Source of the DNA: a virus
Direction: 5' to 3' (one strand)
IMG/VR virus record: IMGVR_UViG_3300042374_000456
Span: 1 to 62,181 of that record
Length of the DNA stretch: 62,181 nucleotides
Made by a program: the position numbers and the translations under genes. The notes below the pieces were generated by a model. It saw only the letters and a list, made by a program, of their open reading frames with translations, searched no databases and was not told the DNA's origin. Shown one piece after another: positions 23,573 to 36,580 of the stretch (its first letter is position 1; each line of letters starts with the position of its first letter).

Positions 23573-26500
23573 ATGGCTGCAATATTACAATTACGAAGAG
23601 GTACATCTAATGCATCTCCATCATTAGATGAGGGTGAATTATATTTACATCAAGGTTCGGGTTCAATTCAATTTGGAAGTGGCTCACTTACCATAGGTGA
23701 TGGATTAACAAAAACATATACATTATTACCATTAAACGCACCTGTAAATGGTAACATAAAGTTAGTTGGTGATATTACTGCTTCTAATATCCTTTTAAGT
23801 GGTGATTTAACCGCTAGAGATGTAAGATTAAGTGGAAATATTTATTTAGGTGATAGTGGTAGTGATAATATAATCGTCACTGCACAAGTGAGTGGTTCAT
23901 TGATACCTTCTGCATCAAATGAATACGATTTAGGTAGTGATATTCGTAAATGGAAAAAATTATATGCAGTTTCTGCATCAATAGATAGTATATTAGTACC
24001 AGGAAGTGGTATTTTATCATCATCTGGTATTTCTTTTGATTTATATACCGGAAGTGTTGATACTAAAAATATAACTTTAGCAAATGTAACAAGTTCTTTA
24101 TTATCATCCCAAACTAATTTAAATTTATATACATCTTCACAAGATACAAAAAATTCAACATTAGGAAATTACACTGCTAGTTTAGATACTAAGAATTCTA
24201 CTTTAAGAGATTACACTGCAAGTTTAGATACTAAGAATTCTACTTTAGGAAATTATACTGCTTCAATTGATACAAAATGGAGTACGTTATCAAATGTAAC
24301 CCAATCAATTTTATCAGCAACTTCATCATTAAATTCTTATACACAATCGCAAGATACTAAAAATAGTACTCTTGCAATTTATACTGCTTCAATAGATACT
24401 AAATGGGAAACATTATTAAATGTAACCTCATCAGTTTTATCAGCAACAGCATCATTAAATTCTTACACATCTTCACAAGATACTAAGAATAGTACTCTTG
24501 CAAATTATACTTCAAGTTTAGATACTAAGAATTCAACATTAGCTTTATTAACGAGTTCTTTGTTACTATTTACTGCATCTGAAGAATCAAAAAATTCAAC
24601 TTTAGCAATTTATACTGCTTCAATAGATACTAAATGGGAAACATTATTAAATGTAACCTCATCAGTTTTATTATATACTCAATCTTTAAAAGATGCAATA
24701 ACAGTTACTGGTCAAGATGGTTCATCGATTACTACGATTAAAGGAAATTTAGTAGTTCAAGGAACACAAACATCAATTAATTCAACTGCAATTGTATTGG
24801 GTGATAATATCATCGAATTAAATGGTACAGGTGTAGCGAATGGTGGTTTATTGGTTAAAGACCCGACTGGTGCTTCCGAAATTAGTGGTTCTCTATTATG
24901 GGATTCAAGTAATGATTATTGGATAGGTGGTAAAAAAGATTTAGAATCAAAGATACTTTTAGCTGGAGGAGATGGGATAGTTTCATCATCCGCACAAGTG
25001 ACTTCATTATTACCATCCGGTGTAGTTAGTGGTTCTCAACAAGTAACAAGCTCATTAGATAATAGATATTTAATGATTGATGGTGATTCAGTAGTTTCAT
25101 CATCTGCACAAATCGTAAGTATATTAAGTGATTTAAATTCTTACACATCTTCACAAGATACTAAGAATACAACTTTAGGAAATTATACATCAAGTTTAGA
25201 TACTAAGAATATAACATTACAAAATTTAACTGGTTCATTTGCAACAACTGGTTCAAATACATTTAAAGGTGAGCAAATAATAAGTTCTTCTTTAATAGTA
25301 ACTAATGAAATTAAAGGTATTGGAAATATATTTTTACAACCTGATGTTAATGATGCAAGATATTTTCAAATTTATAATACTGCGGCACCTTCGGGTAATG
25401 ATATTCACTTTAAAGGTAATGCAGATTTCAACTACTTTGGTGACGATATCAATTACTTAAAAATAGATGATACTGCACAAACTATAACTATTACCAGTGC
25501 TAATGGTGTATTTGTTAGTTCTTCATTAAATGTAACAGGTGCAGTAAGTGCATCAGCAGGATTTACTGGTTCAATCATCGGTGTAATCAATGCAACAAAT
25601 GGTGTAGTTAGTGGTTCATCTCAAGTAGTATATACATCATTAACATCAATCCCTGCGGGCATAGTTAGTGGTTCTTCACAGATACCATCATTATTACCAA
25701 CTGGTGTAGTTAGTGGTTCTCAGCAAGTAACAGGTTCATTAGATTTAAGATATGCACCATCCGCATCATTTGCTACCTTATTAGGTGCAAATACATTAGC
25801 ATCATTAGGTTCGGCAGCGTTTTACAATGTAACATCATCAGTAGACGTTGTACTTGTAAGTGGAAGTATTAATTATATAAATAATCATTTACTTACTGCA
25901 GGTGCTACTAAAAAATATATAGATTGGAGAACCGAAGAACTTTTAGCGGCCGCAGCTGTTGCAGATATTTTATCGGTAGCTGCGGGAGATGGATTAGGCG
26001 GAGGGGGATTATCAGGTGATGTAACTCTTACATTAAATACCGGTTCTACACATTTTACAAATGGTGTTGATGCTAGACTAATTCCATTGACATCATTAAA
26101 TTCTTATACATCTTCACAAGATACGAAGAATTCAACTCTTGCTATTTATACAGCTTCGATTGATTCACATATTTCAAATCTAAATACTGCAACGTCATCT
26201 TACGAAACAAACGGAAGAGGTATTGTATCTGGTTCATCACAAATATTCGGTGGAAGTGGACTAGTTAGTGGAAGTTCTCAAATAACATATACGGGTATCT
26301 CTTCAATTCCAACAGGAATTGTTAGTGGGTCATCTCAAATAATAGAATTATTACCAACCGGCGTAGTTAGTGGGTCATCACAAATATTAGGAGGAAGTGG
26401 AGTTTGGAGTGGTTCAGGTCAATTACCAAATGGAATAATTTCGGGGTCATCTCAATTAAGTGGAACAACTATTACAGATTTAACTATTGTTAATTTAACA

Positions 26501-27286
26501 ACAATTAATGAAACGGCATCAGTTATATTCAGTAGTGGCTCTAATAGGTTTGGCGATTTTGGAAATGATACACATGAATTTACAGGTTCAGTTCAAATAA
26601 CAGGTTCACTTACAACAATAGGTGATGTAACTGCAACTTCATTTAATGGAGTAATAAATGCTACAAATGGTGTTATCTCAGGGTCTTCACAGCTTACCGC
26701 TACATTGCCATCCGGAGTTGTAAGTGGGTCATCTCAAGTAGATTTGACATCAACTACAAATTATAGTACTGGTATTAAAACAAGATTAAATGCAGAAGGA
26801 GTTATTTCGGGTTCATCACAAATAACCAGAACATTACAACAAATAACTGATACCGGTGCATCAACATCAACTGCAATCACAATTACAAATGCTACCGCAT
26901 CGACTGATAAAACAACTGGTGCATTTATCGTAACAGGTGGTATAGGGGTAAGTGGTGATATCAATGCAGGAGGTGATATTGTTGCTTTTGCATCATCAGA
27001 TATTAGATTAAAAAATAATATCAAACCAATCGAATCCCCATTAGAAAAGATTTCTAAAATTAATGGCTGTGAGTTTGAATGGAATGATGAGTTACAATCT
27101 ATTTATAGTGGTAAAGATTACGGAGTAATCGCTCAAGAAATCGAAGAAGTATTCCCTGAATTAGTACAAACAAGAGAAAATGGTTACAAAGCAGTTAAAT
27201 ATGATAAATTAGTATCCGTTTTAATTGAAGGTATTAAGGAATTAACCAAACAAGTGGAATATTTAAAAACCAAAATAGAAAATTAA
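23573..27286 (+). CDS. Long fibre protein with C-terminal S74 chaperone domain (1237 aa)
   Basis: It carries the attachment-type N-terminus MAAILQLRRGTSNASPSLDEGELY. Residues about 155-360 are a coiled-coil-like array of NSTLANYTASLDTK units, about 13-14 residues each. A GDNIIELNGTG...LLWDSSNDYW module lies around 400-465, then SGSSQ repeats and beta domains. The last ~95 residues are an intramolecular chaperone/autoprotease (peptidase S74): SSDIRLKNNIKPIESPLEKI...YGVIAQEIEEVFPELV...YKAVKYDKLVSVLIEGIKEL, with the Ser at the self-cleavage site. Such domains trimerise fibres and then cut themselves off. The stop overlaps the next start by one base. Confidence 0.85.
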   Translation: MAAILQLRRGTSNASPSLDEGELYLHQGSGSIQFGSGSLTIGDGLTKTYTLLPLNAPVNGNIKLVGDITASNILLSGDLTARDVRLSGNIYLGDSGSDNIIVTAQVSGSLIPSASNEYDLGSDIRKWKKLYAVSASIDSILVPGSGILSSSGISFDLYTGSVDTKNITLANVTSSLLSSQTNLNLYTSSQDTKNSTLGNYTASLDTKNSTLRDYTASLDTKNSTLGNYTASIDTKWSTLSNVTQSILSATSSLNSYTQSQDTKNSTLAIYTASIDTKWETLLNVTSSVLSATASLNSYTSSQDTKNSTLANYTSSLDTKNSTLALLTSSLLLFTASEESKNSTLAIYTASIDTKWETLLNVTSSVLLYTQSLKDAITVTGQDGSSITTIKGNLVVQGTQTSINSTAIVLGDNIIELNGTGVANGGLLVKDPTGASEISGSLLWDSSNDYWIGGKKDLESKILLAGGDGIVSSSAQVTSLLPSGVVSGSQQVTSSLDNRYLMIDGDSVVSSSAQIVSILSDLNSYTSSQDTKNTTLGNYTSSLDTKNITLQNLTGSFATTGSNTFKGEQIISSSLIVTNEIKGIGNIFLQPDVNDARYFQIYNTAAPSGNDIHFKGNADFNYFGDDINYLKIDDTAQTITITSANGVFVSSSLNVTGAVSASAGFTGSIIGVINATNGVVSGSSQVVYTSLTSIPAGIVSGSSQIPSLLPTGVVSGSQQVTGSLDLRYAPSASFATLLGANTLASLGSAAFYNVTSSVDVVLVSGSINYINNHLLTAGATKKYIDWRTEELLAAAAVADILSVAAGDGLGGGGLSGDVTLTLNTGSTHFTNGVDARLIPLTSLNSYTSSQDTKNSTLAIYTASIDSHISNLNTATSSYETNGRGIVSGSSQIFGGSGLVSGSSQITYTGISSIPTGIVSGSSQIIELLPTGVVSGSSQILGGSGVWSGSGQLPNGIISGSSQLSGTTITDLTIVNLTTINETASVIFSSGSNRFGDFGNDTHEFTGSVQITGSLTTIGDVTATSFNGVINATNGVISGSSQLTATLPSGVVSGSSQVDLTSTTNYSTGIKTRLNAEGVISGSSQITRTLQQITDTGASTSTAITITNATASTDKTTGAFIVTGGIGVSGDINAGGDIVAFASSDIRLKNNIKPIESPLEKISKINGCEFEWNDELQSIYSGKDYGVIAQEIEEVFPELVQTRENGYKAVKYDKLVSVLIEGIKELTKQVEYLKTKIEN
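24374..24671 (+). repeat. Exact 67-bp direct repeat inside fibre gene
   Basis: Bases 24374-24440 and 24605-24671 are identical, 231 bases (77 codons) apart, within the coiled array. Exact identity suggests recent duplication or gene conversion and allows recombination that changes fibre length in frame. Confidence 0.8.
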
Positions 27287-27976: not shown

Positions 27977-29527
27977 ATGATAATACATAGTCCCATAATT
28001 TCAGGTTCACTAACCTTTGCAAATGGTGCAACATTCACCTTACCGGATAATGGTATATATAGTGGTTCATTTAGTGGTTCGGTTGCAGGTTTAGGAGACC
28101 CGTCAAGTTTTTCTGCATCATTACAAACTAAAATTCAACAATTAAATATTGATACTGGCTCTCAAGATGCTAGATTGGATTTAATTGAATCGTATACATC
28201 ATCGTTAGAAACTAAGAATTCAACTCTTGCTATTTATACTGCATCAGTTGATACACAACTTTCAAACTTAAACTCTGCAACTTCATCTTATGAAACAAAG
28301 GGTAGAGGATTGGTTAGTGGGTCATCTCAAATAACTTATGCTAGTATCTCTTCAATCCCAGCTGGAATTGTAAGTGGTTCTACTCAAGTAACTGAATTGT
28401 TACCAACCGGTGTAATCTCTGGTTCTGCACAACTTACTTCAACATTACCAACTGGCGTTGTTAGTGGTAGTTCACAAGTAGTTGGTATATTATCAGATTT
28501 AAATACTTTTAGTGGGTCTGAAGAATCAAAAAACTCAACTCTTGCTACTTACACTGCAAGTTTAGATACTAAGAATACAACTCTTGCAAATGTAACAGGC
28601 TCTTTATTATCATCACAAACAAGTTTAAATACATATACATCATCTCTTAATGGAGCAATTCAACTTACGGGTTCAACTGTTTCATTTTTGGGAGATATAG
28701 TTGTATATGGAACACAATCTATAATTAATTCAACAAATTTAGCAATACAAGATAATCTCATTTACTTAAACGAAGGTTCTACTATAACTAATCCTGACTT
28801 AGGTATTGTTGGTAATTATAATGATGGAGTGTATCGACACGCTGGTATTTTTAGAGATGCAAGTGATGGTGGTACTTGGAAAGTATTCGAAGGATACACA
28901 TCAGAACCATCTGGTACACTTGATACGACCGGTAATGGATTTACATTAGCAGATTTTAAAGCAGATGTAATTACCGCAACTTCATTTAATGGAGTGATAA
29001 ATGCAACTAATGGTGTAATATCTGGCTCTTCACAACTTACCGCAACATTACCAACCGGAGTAGTTTCGGGTTCATCTCAAATAACTCTATCATCAACAAC
29101 AGGATATGGTTCAGTATTAAACCAAGCAGTTTTAACTTCATCATCCCCAACTTTCGCAGGTTTAACAATTAACGGAGCAATAACTGCAACGGGTGATATT
29201 ACAGCATTCTCTGCTTCAGATATTCGTTTCAAAGAAAATATTACAGCAATCGAATCTCCAATCGAAAAAATCAAAATGATTAGTGGTAACACATACGATT
29301 GGAAAGCAGAAAATAAAGATATACATGGATTTGAAGGAAACGATGTCGGTGTAATCGCACAAGAAATTGAAGTAGTTCTTCCACAATTAGTTGTAACTCG
29401 TGATAATGGATACAAAGCGGTTAAATATGACAAATTAGTTGCTCTATTAATCGAAGGTATAAAAGAACAACAAAAACAAATTGAAGATTTATCAAACAAA
29501 ATTAATAAATTAGAAACTGGACTATAA
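27977..29527 (+). CDS. Fibre protein with C-terminal S74 chaperone domain (516 aa)
   Basis: A Ser/Thr-rich shaft with SGSSQ and NSTLATYTASLDTK repeats occupies the first 220 residues. A variant of the shared module follows (YGTQSIINSTNLAIQDNLIYLNEGS...), here carrying a distinct insert (GIVGNYNDGVYRHAGIFRDASDGGTWKVFEGY). Residues about 412-516 are a second S74 domain: SASDIRFKENITAIESPIEKI...DVGVIAQEIEVVLPQLV...YKAVKYDKLVALLIEGIKEQ, ending in a coiled coil. Unlike its neighbours it lacks the MAQxxKxxR attachment motif, starting MIIHSPIISGSLTF. It could be the distal part of a fibre whose proximal part is the preceding 214-residue protein. Confidence 0.82.
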   Translation: MIIHSPIISGSLTFANGATFTLPDNGIYSGSFSGSVAGLGDPSSFSASLQTKIQQLNIDTGSQDARLDLIESYTSSLETKNSTLAIYTASVDTQLSNLNSATSSYETKGRGLVSGSSQITYASISSIPAGIVSGSTQVTELLPTGVISGSAQLTSTLPTGVVSGSSQVVGILSDLNTFSGSEESKNSTLATYTASLDTKNTTLANVTGSLLSSQTSLNTYTSSLNGAIQLTGSTVSFLGDIVVYGTQSIINSTNLAIQDNLIYLNEGSTITNPDLGIVGNYNDGVYRHAGIFRDASDGGTWKVFEGYTSEPSGTLDTTGNGFTLADFKADVITATSFNGVINATNGVISGSSQLTATLPTGVVSGSSQITLSSTTGYGSVLNQAVLTSSSPTFAGLTINGAITATGDITAFSASDIRFKENITAIESPIEKIKMISGNTYDWKAENKDIHGFEGNDVGVIAQEIEVVLPQLVVTRDNGYKAVKYDKLVALLIEGIKEQQKQIEDLSNKINKLETGL

Positions 29528-29611: not shown

Positions 29612-31486
29612 ATGGCACAAGTATTAAAGCTAAAAAGAACGGCAGTTCAGGGAAAATCACCTACAACCGACACTCTTGAGTTAGGAGAGTTGGCAATAAA
29701 CACTTACGATGGTAAGTTGTATTTTGAAAAAGATAACGGAGTCCCTTCCATACAATCAATAGTTGTTACTGATGCCCTAATTTCTGGTTCAATTAATATC
29801 GGTGGTGCTATAACGGCTTCAAATTTCATAGGAAATGGTTCTCAAATAACATTCGGTGGGACTGGAATGGTTTCCGGCTCATCTCAATTAACATCCTCAT
29901 TAGATTCAAGATATTTAAATACATTAGGTGAAGGAACTATTAGTGGTTCTTTCACTGGTTCGTTTGGAGGAGATGGTAGTGGATTAATCAACCTACCTGC
30001 ATCCGATATCTCTCAAGTAGCAACTGTTAATTACGCTTTCTTTAATTCCTCAAACATATCAGTTAGTCATAATTTTAATTCACGAAATGTAATTATTTCG
30101 GTATATGATTCTAATTATGCACAAATAATTCCATCATCAGTAACTCTTACGGATTTAAATACTTCAACAATAGTATTAACATCTGCTCAAAGTGGTTATG
30201 TAGTTGTTGCTAAAGGTGGTCACATCGTTAGTGGTTCTGCGGATGATTCGAATAAATTAAATGGTCAATCCGGTTCATATTATTTAGATTATACAAATCA
30301 TACAAATAAACCAAGCGGATTAGTAAGTGGTTCATCTCAGATAGTTAGTATATTGAGTTCATTAAATTCGTATACACAATCACAAGATACTAAGAACTCA
30401 ACCCTTGCAACATATACTGCTTCAATTGATAATGAGTTAGATAGAATACACGAATCAACTGCATCTTTAAACACATATACATCCTCTCTTAAAACCGCTT
30501 TAGAGTTGGCAGGTTCGAATGTAATTGTTTTAGGTAATTTGACCGTTAGAGGAACAACAACATCGATAGAATCAACTACAATTCAGTTAAACGATAATAT
30601 CATTGAATTAAATGGTAGTGGTGTAGCAAATGGTGGTTTGATAGTTAAAGACTCAACGGGTGCTTCTATTATTAGTGGTTCTTTATTATGGGATTCAACT
30701 AATGATTATTGGAAAAGTGGATTAAGTGGGTCTGAATCTAAAATATTACTTGCTGGTGGAGATAGCATCGTATCAGGTTCATCTCAAATTACTTTTAGTG
30801 GAATCAGTTCATTACCGACATTAATATCCGGGTCAATACAAATATTAGGTGGAAGTAATATTGTATCATCATCAACCCAAATCGTTTCATCATTAGTTAG
30901 TGAATCAATCAATTTAGGAACTGGTGCAATTACAGCATCATACTTTGTTGGTGATGGTAGTGGTATTACAAATGTGGTAACTGAAATAGCAGAAGTTGCA
31001 ACTATCACATCATCATTTGATAACCAATCAACTATTGCGGTAACACACAATTTTAATACTAAAAATGTATTAGTTTCAGTATATGGAACGAATGATTCAC
31101 AGATAATACCGGCATCGATAACCCTTACTAATAATAATACTGCAACAATAGTGTTATCATCTGCTCAAAGTGGATATGCGGTAGTTGCTAAAGGTGGCCA
31201 CATAGTAAGTGGTTCTACTTCTTGGAATAACTTAGCAGGAATGCCAAGTGGAATAGTATCTGGTTCATCACAAATAACCACACTAACAACATATAAAGAA
31301 ACAGTTAGTGGCAATTCAACTTATTCGATTACTCATGGGTTAGGTGAAGAATATCCAATAGTTCAAGCATGGAATACTACTAATAAAAGACAAGAAGTTC
31401 CCTCAATTATAGAATCAACCTCAGTTAACGCGTTAACTATAACTTTTGCTGGATTATTTTCTGGACTAATTATAATTAAAAAATAA
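29612..31486 (+). CDS. Long SGSSQ-repeat fibre protein (624 aa)
   Basis: Attachment-type N-terminus MAQVLKLKRTAVQGKSPTTDTLELGELAINTYDGKLYFEKD. There are two copies of the beta domain V-A-T...HNFN-x-(R/K)NV-(I/L)-(I/V)-SVY...AQSGY-x-VVAKGGHIVSGS (about 130-210 and 465-540), a GDNIIELNGSG module (about 325-385) and SGSSQ repeats. The C-terminus (ETVSGNSTYSITHGLGEEYPIVQAW...FSGLIIIKK) is a third, diverged copy of the beta domain. The start is ATG at 29612; an AAGGAG at 29562 is too far upstream to serve it. The glycosyltransferase gene follows after five bases. Confidence 0.75.
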   Translation: MAQVLKLKRTAVQGKSPTTDTLELGELAINTYDGKLYFEKDNGVPSIQSIVVTDALISGSINIGGAITASNFIGNGSQITFGGTGMVSGSSQLTSSLDSRYLNTLGEGTISGSFTGSFGGDGSGLINLPASDISQVATVNYAFFNSSNISVSHNFNSRNVIISVYDSNYAQIIPSSVTLTDLNTSTIVLTSAQSGYVVVAKGGHIVSGSADDSNKLNGQSGSYYLDYTNHTNKPSGLVSGSSQIVSILSSLNSYTQSQDTKNSTLATYTASIDNELDRIHESTASLNTYTSSLKTALELAGSNVIVLGNLTVRGTTTSIESTTIQLNDNIIELNGSGVANGGLIVKDSTGASIISGSLLWDSTNDYWKSGLSGSESKILLAGGDSIVSGSSQITFSGISSLPTLISGSIQILGGSNIVSSSTQIVSSLVSESINLGTGAITASYFVGDGSGITNVVTEIAEVATITSSFDNQSTIAVTHNFNTKNVLVSVYGTNDSQIIPASITLTNNNTATIVLSSAQSGYAVVAKGGHIVSGSTSWNNLAGMPSGIVSGSSQITTLTTYKETVSGNSTYSITHGLGEEYPIVQAWNTTNKRQEVPSIIESTSVNALTITFAGLFSGLIIIKK

Positions 31487-31491
31487 TATAA

Positions 31492-32490
31492 ATGGTTTAT
31501 GATGTTTATTATACCACAGGTGGTGGACCGTGGGTCAATGCAGGTTCTGATATTTGGGTAAATCTTTGGATGGAATTAATAGCACCTAAATTAGATGTTA
31601 AACCAATTCTACTAATTCATAGAAACAAACCCAAAGGACACGAAGATTACGAATTCCCAATAGAAACTTACTGGCATGGTGAAGATATTCAAAAATTTGA
31701 AGAACTATGTAAAGGTGCACGAAGAATTAATATTCTACATGGGCATTATACTCCAATGAAACCGATTGTAGATAATAAAGATAAAATTCATTCAAATATA
31801 TTACACAATTCAGTAGACCATATCTTAAAATCTCAATTCGGAAGTGATTTACCAATAGGACATCATCCTTATATGAGTACGGAATGGGAACAAGAGGTTA
31901 CTGATTGGTGTGAAAATAATATATGGGTAGGATTATACGATATACTTTATAACAATACAAATATACCAAATTTTTACGAATTTAAATGGAATTTACCTCT
32001 ATCCGAATCTAATAAATTGGGATTTGCTGCAAGAAGTGAAGGTAGAAAAAACCCACACTATTTAGATAAAATTCCAAGTCTTATTTTCACAAATTCCGAA
32101 GAATTTAATTTACTTTGGAAAAATGGAGTAAAGATAGATATTTCAAAATCAAAATTATATCATTACAACCCAGATTTTAAAGATACTTTTTACAATATGG
32201 ATTGGGGTATATCACATTCATCTTTTATATCAGAACCATTTGGATATTCAATATTCGAAGCGGTTGATAAGGGTAAATTACCAATACTACATTCTAGTTG
32301 GTGTAAAGATTTAGAATATCCATACCGAGCATCGTCTAAAACTGAATTTTTCGATATTTATACAAAGATTACTACATTACCTTATTCTGAAAAATTATAT
32401 TGGTTTAATATTATAAAAACTTATATGATTGAAAAATATACGGATAAGAATAAGTGGATTGATTCATTATTAGATATTTATAACAAATAG
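31492..32490 (+). CDS. GT-B glycosyltransferase (GT4-like) within the fibre cluster
   Basis: The 332-residue protein shows the nucleotide-sugar-binding half of GT-B transferases. The stretch GISHSSFISEPFGYSIFEAVDKGKLPIL contains the E-x7-E motif (Glu248 and Glu256) of GT4-type enzymes, and LGFAARSEGRKNP (186-198) resembles the loop that binds the donor phosphate. It has no membrane segment, so it acts in the cytoplasm. It sits five bases after one fibre gene and 11 before another fibre-type gene, so its acceptor is plausibly a fibre protein rich in Ser, Thr and Asn, or else host polysaccharide or phage DNA. Donor and acceptor cannot be deduced. Confidence 0.75.
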   Translation: MVYDVYYTTGGGPWVNAGSDIWVNLWMELIAPKLDVKPILLIHRNKPKGHEDYEFPIETYWHGEDIQKFEELCKGARRINILHGHYTPMKPIVDNKDKIHSNILHNSVDHILKSQFGSDLPIGHHPYMSTEWEQEVTDWCENNIWVGLYDILYNNTNIPNFYEFKWNLPLSESNKLGFAARSEGRKNPHYLDKIPSLIFTNSEEFNLLWKNGVKIDISKSKLYHYNPDFKDTFYNMDWGISHSSFISEPFGYSIFEAVDKGKLPILHSSWCKDLEYPYRASSKTEFFDIYTKITTLPYSEKLYWFNIIKTYMIEKYTDKNKWIDSLLDIYNK

Positions 32491-32501
32491 GAACAACATA
32501 A

Positions 32502-33773
32502 ATGGCAACATTAACATCAGGACAGACCAAAAGTTTAAATAATTTAGCTTCAGCTACCGGTCAAGCTACAAAATCAATGTCAGCAGCAAAAGGAAATTCA
32601 ACAGGTCCTATTGCAATGTCATCATTTGCAATTGATTCGGTAGATTCGGTAACTGGTTATACATACGCAGTGGAATCTACAACTGAAACATATACATTAG
32701 GTTTTACTGGTGCTGGTTCAAATTTTAGTAGAATTAGTGGTAGAGCAGCAAACTTTACATGGAGTGTAGCAGCAGGTTCATATATAACATTGGGAACAAA
32801 TAGTGGTACAACCGCTACTTTTACAATTTCTAATATGAATCCACAATCACCATCAGCACAAACTTCACTTTTAACTGCACAATCTAATACAATTAGAGCA
32901 GTATTTGCAGATGGTTATAATACTCATGCAACTGGATATAATTCAAATAAAGATAAGACGGTTTATTCCGTAGATTCATATGATGGTAACTCAACCGCTT
33001 TATGTTTAACAATTGATTCACCAATAGTGTTATCAGATGGTTCAATAGTAGAAGCAGGAGATTTAGTAGAAGGTGATAAGTTAAAAGGTTATTCATTATC
33101 TGGTTTAACATTAGATTCTGATAATAATTTCTTTAATTGGTCATCATCTGAATTAGGTCAAGAATTAAAAGAAGTAGAAGTTAAGGGTATTGTATACTCA
33201 TTCTCATCAAAATATTATGATATAAACAATGGTGGAGTAACTGCAACATCAGAACATCCATTATTAGTAAAAGATTCTGAAGATGGTAAATATAGATTCA
33301 AAGAAATATTTAGAATTACAACTGACGATAAATTAGTAAAAGAAGAAGGTGGAGTTTTAGTAGAAAAAGATATTACATCAATTGAATTAATAAATAGAAC
33401 ATCTGAAATCGTTTCAATTGACGTTGAAGATGTAGATACTTATTTGGTAAATGGATATGTAACCCACAATAAAGGTGGAAACACATTTGCAGATTTAGCA
33501 GCACCTGGTGCACCAACATCAGTAGCATATGCATCTCCGTTTGTATCGTGGGTTGCACCGGCATCAGTAGGAACAGGTGGTATTACTGCATATGATGTAC
33601 AAATATCAACAGGAAATACATTTGTTTCTAACACAGTAGATAATACTGAATGGAGTGAAGCTAATATAGAAGTTAATACTCTATTAACTGCAGGGACTTG
33701 GTATGTTAGAGTTAGAGCGATTGACCAAGGTCTTAAAGGGACTTGGAGTAGTGCAGTTTCATTTGTTAGATAA
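32502..33773 (+). CDS. Fibre-type virion protein with embedded Hint (intein-like) domain and FN3 domain
   Basis: Residues 1-165 are Ser/Thr/Ala-rich beta structure like phage adhesins. Residues 168-323 form a Hint domain: Cys168 in LCLTIDSPIVLSDGSIVEAGDLVEGDKL (block A), TSEHP with His252 (block B), and DVDTYLVNGYVTHN ending in His322-Asn323 (block G). There is no homing endonuclease. The residue after Asn323 is Lys, not Cys/Ser/Thr, so normal splicing is unlikely; this resembles type-A bacterial-intein-like domains that cleave. Residues about 335-420 are a fibronectin-III domain (PTSVAYASPFVSWVAP...WYVRVRAIDQG). AGGA precedes ATG. The product may be cut into an adhesin part and an FN3 part. 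Confidence 0.85.
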   Translation: MATLTSGQTKSLNNLASATGQATKSMSAAKGNSTGPIAMSSFAIDSVDSVTGYTYAVESTTETYTLGFTGAGSNFSRISGRAANFTWSVAAGSYITLGTNSGTTATFTISNMNPQSPSAQTSLLTAQSNTIRAVFADGYNTHATGYNSNKDKTVYSVDSYDGNSTALCLTIDSPIVLSDGSIVEAGDLVEGDKLKGYSLSGLTLDSDNNFFNWSSSELGQELKEVEVKGIVYSFSSKYYDINNGGVTATSEHPLLVKDSEDGKYRFKEIFRITTDDKLVKEEGGVLVEKDITSIELINRTSEIVSIDVEDVDTYLVNGYVTHNKGGNTFADLAAPGAPTSVAYASPFVSWVAPASVGTGGITAYDVQISTGNTFVSNTVDNTEWSEANIEVNTLLTAGTWYVRVRAIDQGLKGTWSSAVSFVR

Positions 33774-33842: not shown

Positions 33843-34112
33843 ATGGCAGAAAAAATTAAGTTTACGGAAGACGAGGTTAATCAAATTAACGAATTACGAA
33901 TTGAAGTTGGGTCGGTTTTTACTGAATTAGGACAAATTCATATTGAAAAAAAGAGAAGATTGTCAGAATTAGAAGAAAGAGAAGCAGAATTAATTAAACA
34001 ACATTCGGAGTTGGTTATCAAAGAAGAAACCTTATTTAAAGGATTAAACGAAAAATACGGCGATGGTGATTATAACCCTACAACGGGAGAATTCACACCA
34101 ATAGCAGAATAA
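33843..34112 (+). CDS. Small coiled-coil protein before the sheath gene (89 aa)
   Basis: Almost wholly a charged coiled coil (residues 8-70, rich in Glu, Leu and Lys), with a short disordered C-terminus (YGDGDYNPTTGEFTPIAE). Similar small coiled-coil genes occur beside structural genes in T4-like marine phages, without known function. It has its own late-type motif and no Shine-Dalgarno. Confidence 0.7.
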   Translation: MAEKIKFTEDEVNQINELRIEVGSVFTELGQIHIEKKRRLSELEEREAELIKQHSELVIKEETLFKGLNEKYGDGDYNPTTGEFTPIAE

Positions 34113-34168: not shown

Positions 34169-34204
34169 GTGTATCATTACACAAACTTAATAGGAGTAAA
34201 TAAA

Positions 34205-36580
34205 ATGGCAGAAAAAATTGTATCACCTGGTGTATTCACAAGAGAGAATGATTTATCATTTTTATCACAGGGTATCGGAGAAATTGGAGCAGCAATAGTA
34301 GGACCTTTCAGTAAAGGACCAGCGTTCTTACCAACTATCGTCAATACACAATCAGAATTTGAAGAAATATTCGGTACACCTGATGGAACATACTATACAG
34401 GGTACGCAGTTCAAAACTATCTAAGAGAAGCAGGAACAGTTACGATTGTTCGTGTCGGACACATAGGTGGATATGAACACGCAGCACCACTTGCAATAGT
34501 AGTTAGTGGCTCAGCCGCACAAGGTGGAAAAAAAATAGTAGCAACTTTACATTCAACGATTGAATCGATTGAAAGTGTTGGATTATTTAGTGGTTCTACA
34601 AATGCAACAATTACATCACCAATTGGAAGTTCTGAATTTTTAATTACAGGCGGTCAATTAAGTGGTTCATTTAGTGCATCAATATTACCATCAGCTGGAA
34701 ACGATATAGGTGATGTATTTGGTGAATCTCCATTTGGAACTAAAAAAGCATACACATACACTTATTTTGAAAAAACAGCAACTGATTTTTCACAATCATT
34801 TGCAACAAGTGCAGCAGATGTTGAATTACTTGAGTTACCAACTCAAATATATAGTGCTACAGATGGTCCAACACACGCATCTACTCCGTGGGTTAAATCT
34901 CAATTGATTAGTGGTGAAAGAAGTGACCTTTTCCGTTTCCATACATTAGGTGATGGTAACCCATATAATACTGAATATAAAGTAAGTATTTTTAATGTTA
35001 AAGCAGCAGGAGTATCTGGTGCAACTGATTACGCAACATTCTCAGTAGTAATTCGTGGATTCAATGATACCGATAGAAAAAAATCAGTAAAAGAAACATA
35101 TAATAACGTTAACTTAGACCCAGCATCTCCAAACTATATTGCTAAAGTAATTGGTGATAGAAATTTGACAATTGATGCAAATGGTAAACAAAGTGAAAAT
35201 GGTGATTACGCAAATCGTTCTAAATTAGTTAGAATAGAAGTGTCACCTGAAGGTACATTCCCTATTATAGCAGCACCTTTTGGACACGAGGCGTATTATA
35301 ATCCTATAAGATTAGCATCTGGTGCAACAGCTGTATATGTACCTAAAGTTATTTACACATCAGGCTCATTTAGTAATACAGCATCATCTGCATATAGATA
35401 TTCTGGTATTGATTTAGAAACTAGTGTAGTAAGAATAAACAACACACAATATTTAAAACCACTACCTGATTATAGTGTAGCGGATGAAATCGCAGGTATA
35501 ACAACCGGTTCAAACCAACTATTTGCATTTGATAACGTAAGTTTAGGATTATCTGCTTCATTATCAACTGATGATACTGCTGAAACAATTGCTAAAAGAC
35601 AATTTACATTAGGATTTCAAGGTGGATTTGATGGTGTAACTCCAACAAGAGTAATAAATAAAGGTGTAGATATATCATCTGGTAATTCACAAGGATTTAA
35701 CTTAGCAACATCAATTGCAAGTGGTTCAGTTGCATATGTAAAAGCAATCAACGCGGTATCCAACCCTGATGATTTTGATATTAACTTAATCGCAGTACCA
35801 GGTATAATTCGTAGACATCATTCATATGCATTTGATTACATAAGTGAAATGTGTGAGAATCGTGAAGATGTATTCTTCATTGGTGATGTAGTTGGATGTG
35901 ATAGTACTGATACGATTGATGCAGCAGTAACAGAAGGTGCATCAGTAGATTCTAACTATGTAGGTACTTACTACCCGTGGGTTAAGACAATCGATAGAAA
36001 CACCAACAAATTAACTGCAGTACCACCATCAGTATTGATGCCAGGTATTTACGCAGCAAATGACGCGGTTGCAGCAGAATGGTTCGCACCAGCTGGTTTA
36101 AATCGTGGTGGAATCGTAGGAGCAGTTTCAGTATTGAATAGATTAACACACGCAGAGAGAGATACATTATACGAAGGAAAAATAAATCCTATCGCATCTT
36201 TCCCTGGTGAGGGTATCGTGGCATTTGGACAGAAAACATTACAAGAAAAATCATCAGCGTTAGATAGAATCAATGTTAGAAGATTACTTATCAAAGTTAA
36301 GAAGTATATCGCTTCTACATCAAGATACTTAGTATTCGAACAAAATACTTCTACCACTCGTTCAAGATTCTTAAATACAGTTAATCCTTATTTAGAAGCA
36401 ATTCAACAAAGACAAGGTTTATATGCATTTAGAGTAGTAATGGATGAGACTAATAACACTCCTGATGTAATTGATAGAAATATATTGGCTGGACAGATTT
36501 TCTTACAACCAACAAAAACAGCTGAATTCATCGTATTAGATTTCAATATCTTACCGACTGGAGCATCGTTCTCAGCATAA
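34205..36580 (+). CDS. 18: Tail sheath protein, gp18-like
   Basis: The contractile sheath of the tail, 791 residues. The N-terminus, SPGVFTRENDLSFLSQGIGEIGAAIVGPFSKGPAFLPTIV, and the C-terminal region (ERDTLYEGKINPIASFPGEGIVAFGQKTL...INVRRLLIKVKKYIASTSRYLVFE) are classic sheath signatures. The middle holds insert domains. It is somewhat longer than T4 gp18 (659). I chose ATG at 34205 because it has AGGAG eight bases upstream and starts the conserved MAEKIVSPGVF; an upstream in-frame ATG at 34169 lacks both. The next gene is the tube protein, the usual pairing. Confidence 0.95.
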   Translation: MAEKIVSPGVFTRENDLSFLSQGIGEIGAAIVGPFSKGPAFLPTIVNTQSEFEEIFGTPDGTYYTGYAVQNYLREAGTVTIVRVGHIGGYEHAAPLAIVVSGSAAQGGKKIVATLHSTIESIESVGLFSGSTNATITSPIGSSEFLITGGQLSGSFSASILPSAGNDIGDVFGESPFGTKKAYTYTYFEKTATDFSQSFATSAADVELLELPTQIYSATDGPTHASTPWVKSQLISGERSDLFRFHTLGDGNPYNTEYKVSIFNVKAAGVSGATDYATFSVVIRGFNDTDRKKSVKETYNNVNLDPASPNYIAKVIGDRNLTIDANGKQSENGDYANRSKLVRIEVSPEGTFPIIAAPFGHEAYYNPIRLASGATAVYVPKVIYTSGSFSNTASSAYRYSGIDLETSVVRINNTQYLKPLPDYSVADEIAGITTGSNQLFAFDNVSLGLSASLSTDDTAETIAKRQFTLGFQGGFDGVTPTRVINKGVDISSGNSQGFNLATSIASGSVAYVKAINAVSNPDDFDINLIAVPGIIRRHHSYAFDYISEMCENREDVFFIGDVVGCDSTDTIDAAVTEGASVDSNYVGTYYPWVKTIDRNTNKLTAVPPSVLMPGIYAANDAVAAEWFAPAGLNRGGIVGAVSVLNRLTHAERDTLYEGKINPIASFPGEGIVAFGQKTLQEKSSALDRINVRRLLIKVKKYIASTSRYLVFEQNTSTTRSRFLNTVNPYLEAIQQRQGLYAFRVVMDETNNTPDVIDRNILAGQIFLQPTKTAEFIVLDFNILPTGASFSA

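Follow-up and report, generated by a model that had tools for sequence, protein, structure and literature searches.

Type A bacterial-intein-like (BIL) domains, which are among the closest described relatives of the domain analysed here, combine an N-terminal thioester with asparagine cyclisation, and the freed amine of the C-terminal part can ligate even without a nucleophile at the +1 position (PMC4031507). Those without a +1 nucleophile splice at a low level and yield mainly cleavage products (PMC4031507). The type A BILs published so far are described from hypervariable stretches of bacterial proteins that are not themselves conserved (PMC7765530). What BILs do has long been an open question, because the known domains belong to variable proteins with little conservation and in most cases do no more than cleave. 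A eukaryotic example, BIL2 from the Tetrahymena BUBL1 polyubiquitin locus (6Y75, 6TMM), has been reported to splice through an isopeptide bond to a lysine side chain (PMC8616854). In phages, the open literature that we searched reports Hint domains in terminase, ribonucleotide reductase or helicase genes, and we found no report there of Hint domains in tail Ig/FN3 proteins or tail adhesins.

Here we describe a Hint domain in a phage protein encoded within a stretch of 62,181 nucleotides (IMG/VR record IMGVR_UViG_3300042374_000456, positions 1 to 62,181), referred to below as the window. Profile searches identified a sheath, a tube, a baseplate hub, S74 fibre proteins and UvsX, as expected for a myovirus-type phage. 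A first-pass annotation of the window had proposed a complete intein-like Hint of about 156 residues without a homing endonuclease, a proposal that is borne out by the ORF coordinates, by the TIGR01445 profile and by a structural model (Z 16-20). The interval 33003-33470 corresponds exactly to codons 168 (TGT, Cys) through 323 (AAT, Asn), is followed by an AAA codon for Lys324, and includes blocks A, B, F and G, so that the Hint is complete (Table 1). Cys168, His252 within the TSEH motif (249-252), the His322-Asn323 pair and the subsequent Lys324 all occupy the positions initially assigned to them. With 156 residues, the domain is too short for an endonuclease insert and thus represents a Hint without endonuclease. 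Residues 168-256 match the NCBIfam intein_Nterm profile (TIGR01445) at 25.8 bits (cut-off 24.5), as do 57 of 65 family members, while the Pfam profiles PT-HINT (PF07591; 27.4 bits against a gathering cut-off of 27.7) and fn3 (24.9 bits for the C-extein; cut-off 25) fall marginally below their thresholds.

Table 1. Features of the Hint gene and the genes downstream of it (positions refer to the window; residues are numbered in the 423-residue protein).
Feature	Positions	Strand	Remarks
Hint gene	32502..33773	+	423-aa ORF: Ig-like domain, Hint, FN3-like domain
N-extein, residues 1-167	32502..33002	+	short N-terminal helical segment and Ig-like beta sandwich; last residue is the invariant Leu167
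Hint domain, Cys168-Asn323, 156 aa	33003..33470	+	TIGR01445 above cut-off; Hint-fold structural matches
Cys168, predicted thioester nucleophile (Hint residue 1)	33003..33005	+	96/96 distinct homologs selected by the N-domain (among the matches listed)
Block B, T249-S-E-H252	33246..33257	+	His252 and Pro253 invariant (70 sequences, <85% identity)
Asp307, block F acidic residue	33420..33422	+	kept in at least 90% of 65 sequences
His322-Asn323, predicted Asn cyclisation site	33465..33470	+	invariant
Lys324, +1 residue	33471..33473	+	Lys in 148/148 distinct sequences (among the matches listed)
C-extein, residues 324-423	33471..33770	+	conserved KGGN linker and FN3-like domain
Small conserved gene between Hint gene and tail sheath gene	33843..34112	+	154/164 distinct loci
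Tail sheath gene	34169..36580	+	phrog_23, E 1e-71; Pfam Phage_sheath

The AlphaFold model of the 423-residue protein, built on 65 homologs, has a mean pLDDT of 86.4. Its residues 163-328 resemble known Hint structures (Z 16-20 in a structure search), the best match being Tetrahymena BIL2 (6y75; Z 20.4, rmsd 1.8, 141 residues), followed by the Ssp DnaB mini-intein (Z 19.5), a Clostridium BIL (2lwy; Z 18.5) and Hedgehog (1at0; Z 18.4). Residues 332-423 match the FN3 structure 4bqb (Z 12.5). The N-terminal 167 residues are modelled as an Ig-like sandwich (pLDDT 88.6, pTM 0.84). In a fold search, the Ig-like domains of phage T5 pb6 and lambda gpV matched this part weakly (Z ≤7.2), so that 'Ig-like' denotes an arrangement here and not a family assignment. 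The initial placement of the Hint ahead of an FN3 domain thus holds, and the gene lies in a tail module; the supposed Ser/Thr-rich domain upstream of the Hint is a folded Ig-like beta domain and not a low-complexity region. Model confidence is low near both junctions (161-164 and 326-331, the latter with pLDDT <50), where the linkers are probably flexible; Leu-1 and Lys+1 are unchanging even though both adjoin these segments. Long stretches of the model are also matched by the predicted viral structures A0A6J5MFV5 and A0A6J7WKC1 from uncultured Caudovirales, which are known by annotation only ('Fibronectin type III' or 'Hint domain containing protein').

In sequence and fold, the phage Hint is type A BIL-like, and it differs from the described members by its fixed site in a conserved gene and by a constant lysine at +1. 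It shares with the type A BIL of Clostridium thermocellum (2lwy) the Hint fold, Cys1, the block B histidine, the C-terminal His-Asn and the lack of C/S/T at +1. In the phage family, however, the +1 residue is invariably lysine, and the Hint always occupies the same site of a single gene family upstream of the sheath gene, in place of the hypervariable location that is descriptive of, but does not define, type A BILs. BIL2 is the best structural match, gives a significant profile match and likewise lies between two small domains, but it is eukaryotic, carries methionine at +1 in the crystallised construct and is only 20-22% identical to the phage Hint. The features of class 1 inteins are lacking, as the +1 residue is Lys324 and no intein-free homolog of the host protein occurs among the 96 intact matches listed. 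Pretoxin HINT (PT-HINT, PF07591) is linked to the phage domain by the weak profile match and by the position of the Hint ahead of a C-terminal domain, which in the phage protein is FN3-like and not a toxin domain. Hedgehog Hog domains have a sterol-recognition region and no C-terminal His-Asn, in contrast to the phage Hint, which ends in His-Asn and is followed by the FN3-like domain.

In a tblastn search for cultured phages, matches at E <0.01 were confined to phage NCTB and one uncultured huge phage. In NCTB, the 'large intein domain protein' and two neighbours (BN7874_132, 135, 136) resemble our family in that they place Hints among tail-fibre genes. These Hints are C-terminal or stand alone, are ~26% identical to the phage Hint described here and have no FN3 part behind them; they end in LVHNAPVDQKH, LVHNKVD and CIHNAVMVAKK. 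BN7874_135 (L572:6198-6659) is a 153-aa gene, apparently consisting of a Hint alone with the end HNKVD; it has tail fibre genes on one side and a further Hint protein on the other.

Scans of viral contigs yielded more than 100 relatives, with at least 148 distinct sequences that include the Hint end, 136 of them full length. To avoid selection on the Hint itself, two scans were queried with the N-terminal domain alone; these recovered 160 loci that encode 98 distinct proteins among the matches listed. Ninety-six of these carry the Hint, one is cut by a contig end and one (L096) is frameshifted. In all 96 intact homologs among the matches listed, the N-terminal junction of the Hint reads Leu-Cys, and the Hint retains the block B His-Pro, ends in His-Asn and is followed by lysine; no Hint-less (empty) allele was found among them, which led us to reject a mobile intein. 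The L096 sequence has a frameshift and a short duplicated stretch within the Hint, due to a genuine loss or to faulty assembly, and it was rejected as a Hint-less homolog since the lesion lies inside the Hint and does not constitute an empty allele.

Leu167, Cys168, His252, Pro253, His322, Asn323 and Lys324 are among the residues that never change in a set of 70 sequences with <85% identity, although the Hint overall diverges to a mean distance of 45%. The median dN/dS is lower in the Hint (0.14) than in its flanks (0.20 and 0.18), which counts against decay. The Hint evolves together with its protein, as its distances correlate with those of the flanks (Mantel r 0.45-0.47, P 0.001). Taken from sequence comparison, these patterns indicate that the Hint is a fixed part of its protein and not a mobile one. 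They also speak against the suggestion that the domain generates variants: none of the intact homologs among the matches listed departs from the common site, architecture and residues, so that there is no sign of diversification. No second Hint was found within the window, and a Hint profile search of genome contigs returned no cellular relative.

The genomic context of the family is conserved as well. In 154 of the 164 distinct loci with enough downstream DNA (among the matches listed), the Hint gene lies upstream of the small gene and the sheath gene, and in 80 of 89 loci (among the matches listed), a conserved 332-aa gene stands just ahead of it, with fibre genes also on the upstream side. 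Neither Pfam nor PHROG gave a significant match for the 332-aa gene (31492-32490 in the window), the C-terminal half of which looks, by eye, like a GT-B glycosyltransferase. Farther upstream, the fibre proteins encoded at 23573-27286 and 27977-29527 have C-terminal matches to S74-chaperone-type tail fibre families, and the fibre-like protein of 624 aa encoded at 29612-31486 is rich in SGSSQ motifs and is repeated internally (SAQSGYVVVAKGGHIVSGS and SAQSGYAVVAKGGHIVSGS). The cultured phages with the closest sheath proteins are Microcystis phage Mel-JY01 and Flavobacterium phage immuto, neither of which has a Hint-gene homolog adjoining the sheath gene. The match to phrog_38766 ('virion structural protein') aligns mostly through the Hint and so provides no independent proof of a virion location, and no N-domain member matched PHROG. 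The designation as a virion adhesin was too strong: we infer both the adhesin role and the virion location from the neighbouring genes and from the Ig and FN3 domains.

Lys324 is a constant feature of the family. It confirms the initial view that a classical +1 nucleophile is lacking, as lysine occupies this position in all 148 distinct sequences among the matches listed. Lys324 is the sole invariant one among the 18 lysines of the window protein (70 sequences, <85% identity), and of the 136 full-length sequences, 109 encode it by AAA and 27 by AAG, a mixture that points to selection on the amino acid. Members with an extended linker (HNKDEG, HNKEQG) still have the lysine directly after the asparagine. 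On sequence grounds, this constancy suggests that the +1 lysine takes part in the reaction, and to call the domain non-splicing because of its lysine is probably too simple. The proposed 'non-splicing C-terminus' was also too strong in view of the low-level splicing of type A BILs (PMC4031507) and the lysine isopeptide of BIL2 (PMC8616854). Autoprocessing as such, which the first-pass annotation had also put forward, is likely.

A preference for lysine extends beyond this family. We ran a control scan of viral sequences with a G-block pattern that left the +1 residue unselected and matched mostly inteins; among the matches listed, the +1 residue was C/S/T in 110 of 119 Hints and lysine in 7. 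These 7 are mini-Hints that belong to different proteins; in many of them the cysteine is preceded by a Gly-rich linker, and several terminate at HNK-stop. A wider survey then covered phage Hints without C/S/T at +1, with their ends placed by pattern. Of 22 sequence clusters among the matches listed, 21 had a lysine no more than 12 residues behind His-Asn; the expected number, 7.5, was derived from windows of ORFs at these loci, some six-frame noise included. Lysine was at +1 in 11 of these 22 clusters (among the matches listed), and canonical inteins had a lysine in the first 12 residues in 40 of 107 cases (among the matches listed). As the excess had been noticed post hoc, a prediction was written down before testing a held-out sample of new loci chosen by the block A motif only: lysine in the first 12 residues in >80% of clusters and at +1 in at least 30%. 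The prediction was borne out: among the matches listed, 19 of 22 clusters had a lysine in this 12-residue stretch (7.8 expected; P 7e-7, the clusters being only roughly independent), and 8 of 22 had one at +1. A count of lysines at +1/+2, added after the prediction and not part of it, gave 14 of 22 held-out clusters among the matches listed (~2 expected, P about 5e-10), and the excess persisted when the lysine content of the Hints themselves served as background (P 3e-9). In bacterial genomes, the same block A motif retrieved Hints with lysine at +1/+2 in 8 of 12 clusters (among the matches listed). Several exceptions look like misplaced Hint ends. Phage Hints without C/S/T at +1 thus tend toward lysine at +1/+2.

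Other arrangements were seen in the same material. Many phage Hints lie at the protein C-terminus and end at HNK-stop with no C-extein domain (L217, L259, L283, L294, L337, L367, L425). Phage proteins L337, L367, L425 and L749 carry two or more Hints in a row, the last often with HNK-stop. A further common class consists of Hint-like domains of ~140 aa at the C-terminus of phage proteins (L469, L488, L497, L502, L510, L513, L530 and others). They follow a Gly-rich linker, start with CF.xGT.I.M.DG and end with NVNILNAS or similar, without His-Asn; these may perhaps be type B BIL-like.

We tentatively favour a reading in which the Hint, a fixed part of a phage tail-module protein, is active and processes itself in the manner of a type A BIL, with an amine of Lys324 capturing the thioester. 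Cys168 would attack the Leu167-Cys168 bond in an N-S acyl shift, assisted by His252 and Asp307, so that the Ig-like N-terminal part is held as a thioester. Asn323 would then cyclise with the help of His322 and release the C-terminal part, which would start at Lys324. Capture of the thioester by a lysine amine could produce an isopeptide bond if the side chain reacts, or an ordinary peptide bond if the freed alpha-amine does. The predicted products are an Ig-FN3 protein of ~267 residues and a free Hint of 156 residues, and some precursor may end as simple cleavage products in a side reaction. We infer all of these chemical steps, as well as the product ratio, and the alpha- and epsilon-amines are indistinguishable from sequence. 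Capture by Lys324 is favoured because of type A BIL ligation (PMC4031507) and the BIL2 isopeptide (PMC8616854). The more specific proposal that the Lys+1 side-chain amine is the true acceptor, attacking the Cys1 thioester so that the Hint is excised and the Ig-like and FN3-like parts are joined by an isopeptide bond, is rather doubtful. The invariant Lys+1 is compatible with a BIL2-like side-chain acceptor of the Cys1 thioester, but the methionine at +1 of the crystallised BIL2 construct implies that the acceptor lysine of BIL2 lies elsewhere and that the geometry of this precedent differs from that of Lys324. Alternatively, Lys+1 might not be an acceptor and could owe its conservation to the tuning of asparagine cyclisation or to some function of the N-terminus after processing.

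The main rival to ligation by Lys324 is plain cleavage, in which thioester hydrolysis and asparagine cyclisation would cut one or both ends and the Ig-like and FN3-like parts would separate or stay together non-covalently. We regard this as quite possible: type A BILs mostly cleave (PMC4031507, PMC7664689), and in polymorphic toxins, autoproteolysis by the HINT domain is the presumed means of freeing the C-terminal part (PMC3482391). It leaves unexplained, however, why a lysine follows the cut in every member and why unrelated phage Hints show an excess of lysine at +1/+2. A Hedgehog-like transfer, in which another molecule (a lysine of a neighbouring tail subunit or a group on the host surface) attacks the Cys168 thioester and the Ig-like part becomes crosslinked, fits the match to the Hedgehog Hint 1at0 (Z 18.4) and the many C-terminal phage Hints that end at HNK-stop, for which the absence of a C-extein domain means that only the N-terminal part matters. 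In our family, by contrast, the C-extein domain is always there, the lysine is part of the same chain and a lipid-recognition region is lacking, which makes such a transfer unlikely.

Ig and FN3 domains are beta modules that serve as spacers in tails, and a dead Hint might accordingly be retained as one more structural spacer between them; the invariance of all catalytic positions across 70 sequences (<85% identity), despite the 45% mean distance of the Hint, renders this highly improbable. The match to the intein_Nterm profile would also suit a classical mobile mini-intein that invaded the gene and splices through its +1 nucleophile, a reading to which we assign next to no probability given the lysine at +1 in all members, the missing endonuclease and the lack of a second copy in the window.

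At least 96 distinct virus proteins carry a BIL-like domain that is fixed in one gene, close to that of the tail sheath, and in all of them the residue behind the cut is frozen as lysine. The family therefore makes the question of what BILs are for directly testable, as self-processing of a tail protein with lysine as acceptor. The +1/+2 lysine rule provides a simple sequence marker of Hints that lack the usual splicing nucleophile, and if the side chain of Lys+1 is the true acceptor, lysine at +1/+2 in phage and bacterial Hints without C/S/T would mark widespread lysine-dependent ligation in virion and surface proteins. Should ligation by lysine be real, it would amount to ATP-free isopeptide bond formation in virions and offer a possible protein-ligation tool.
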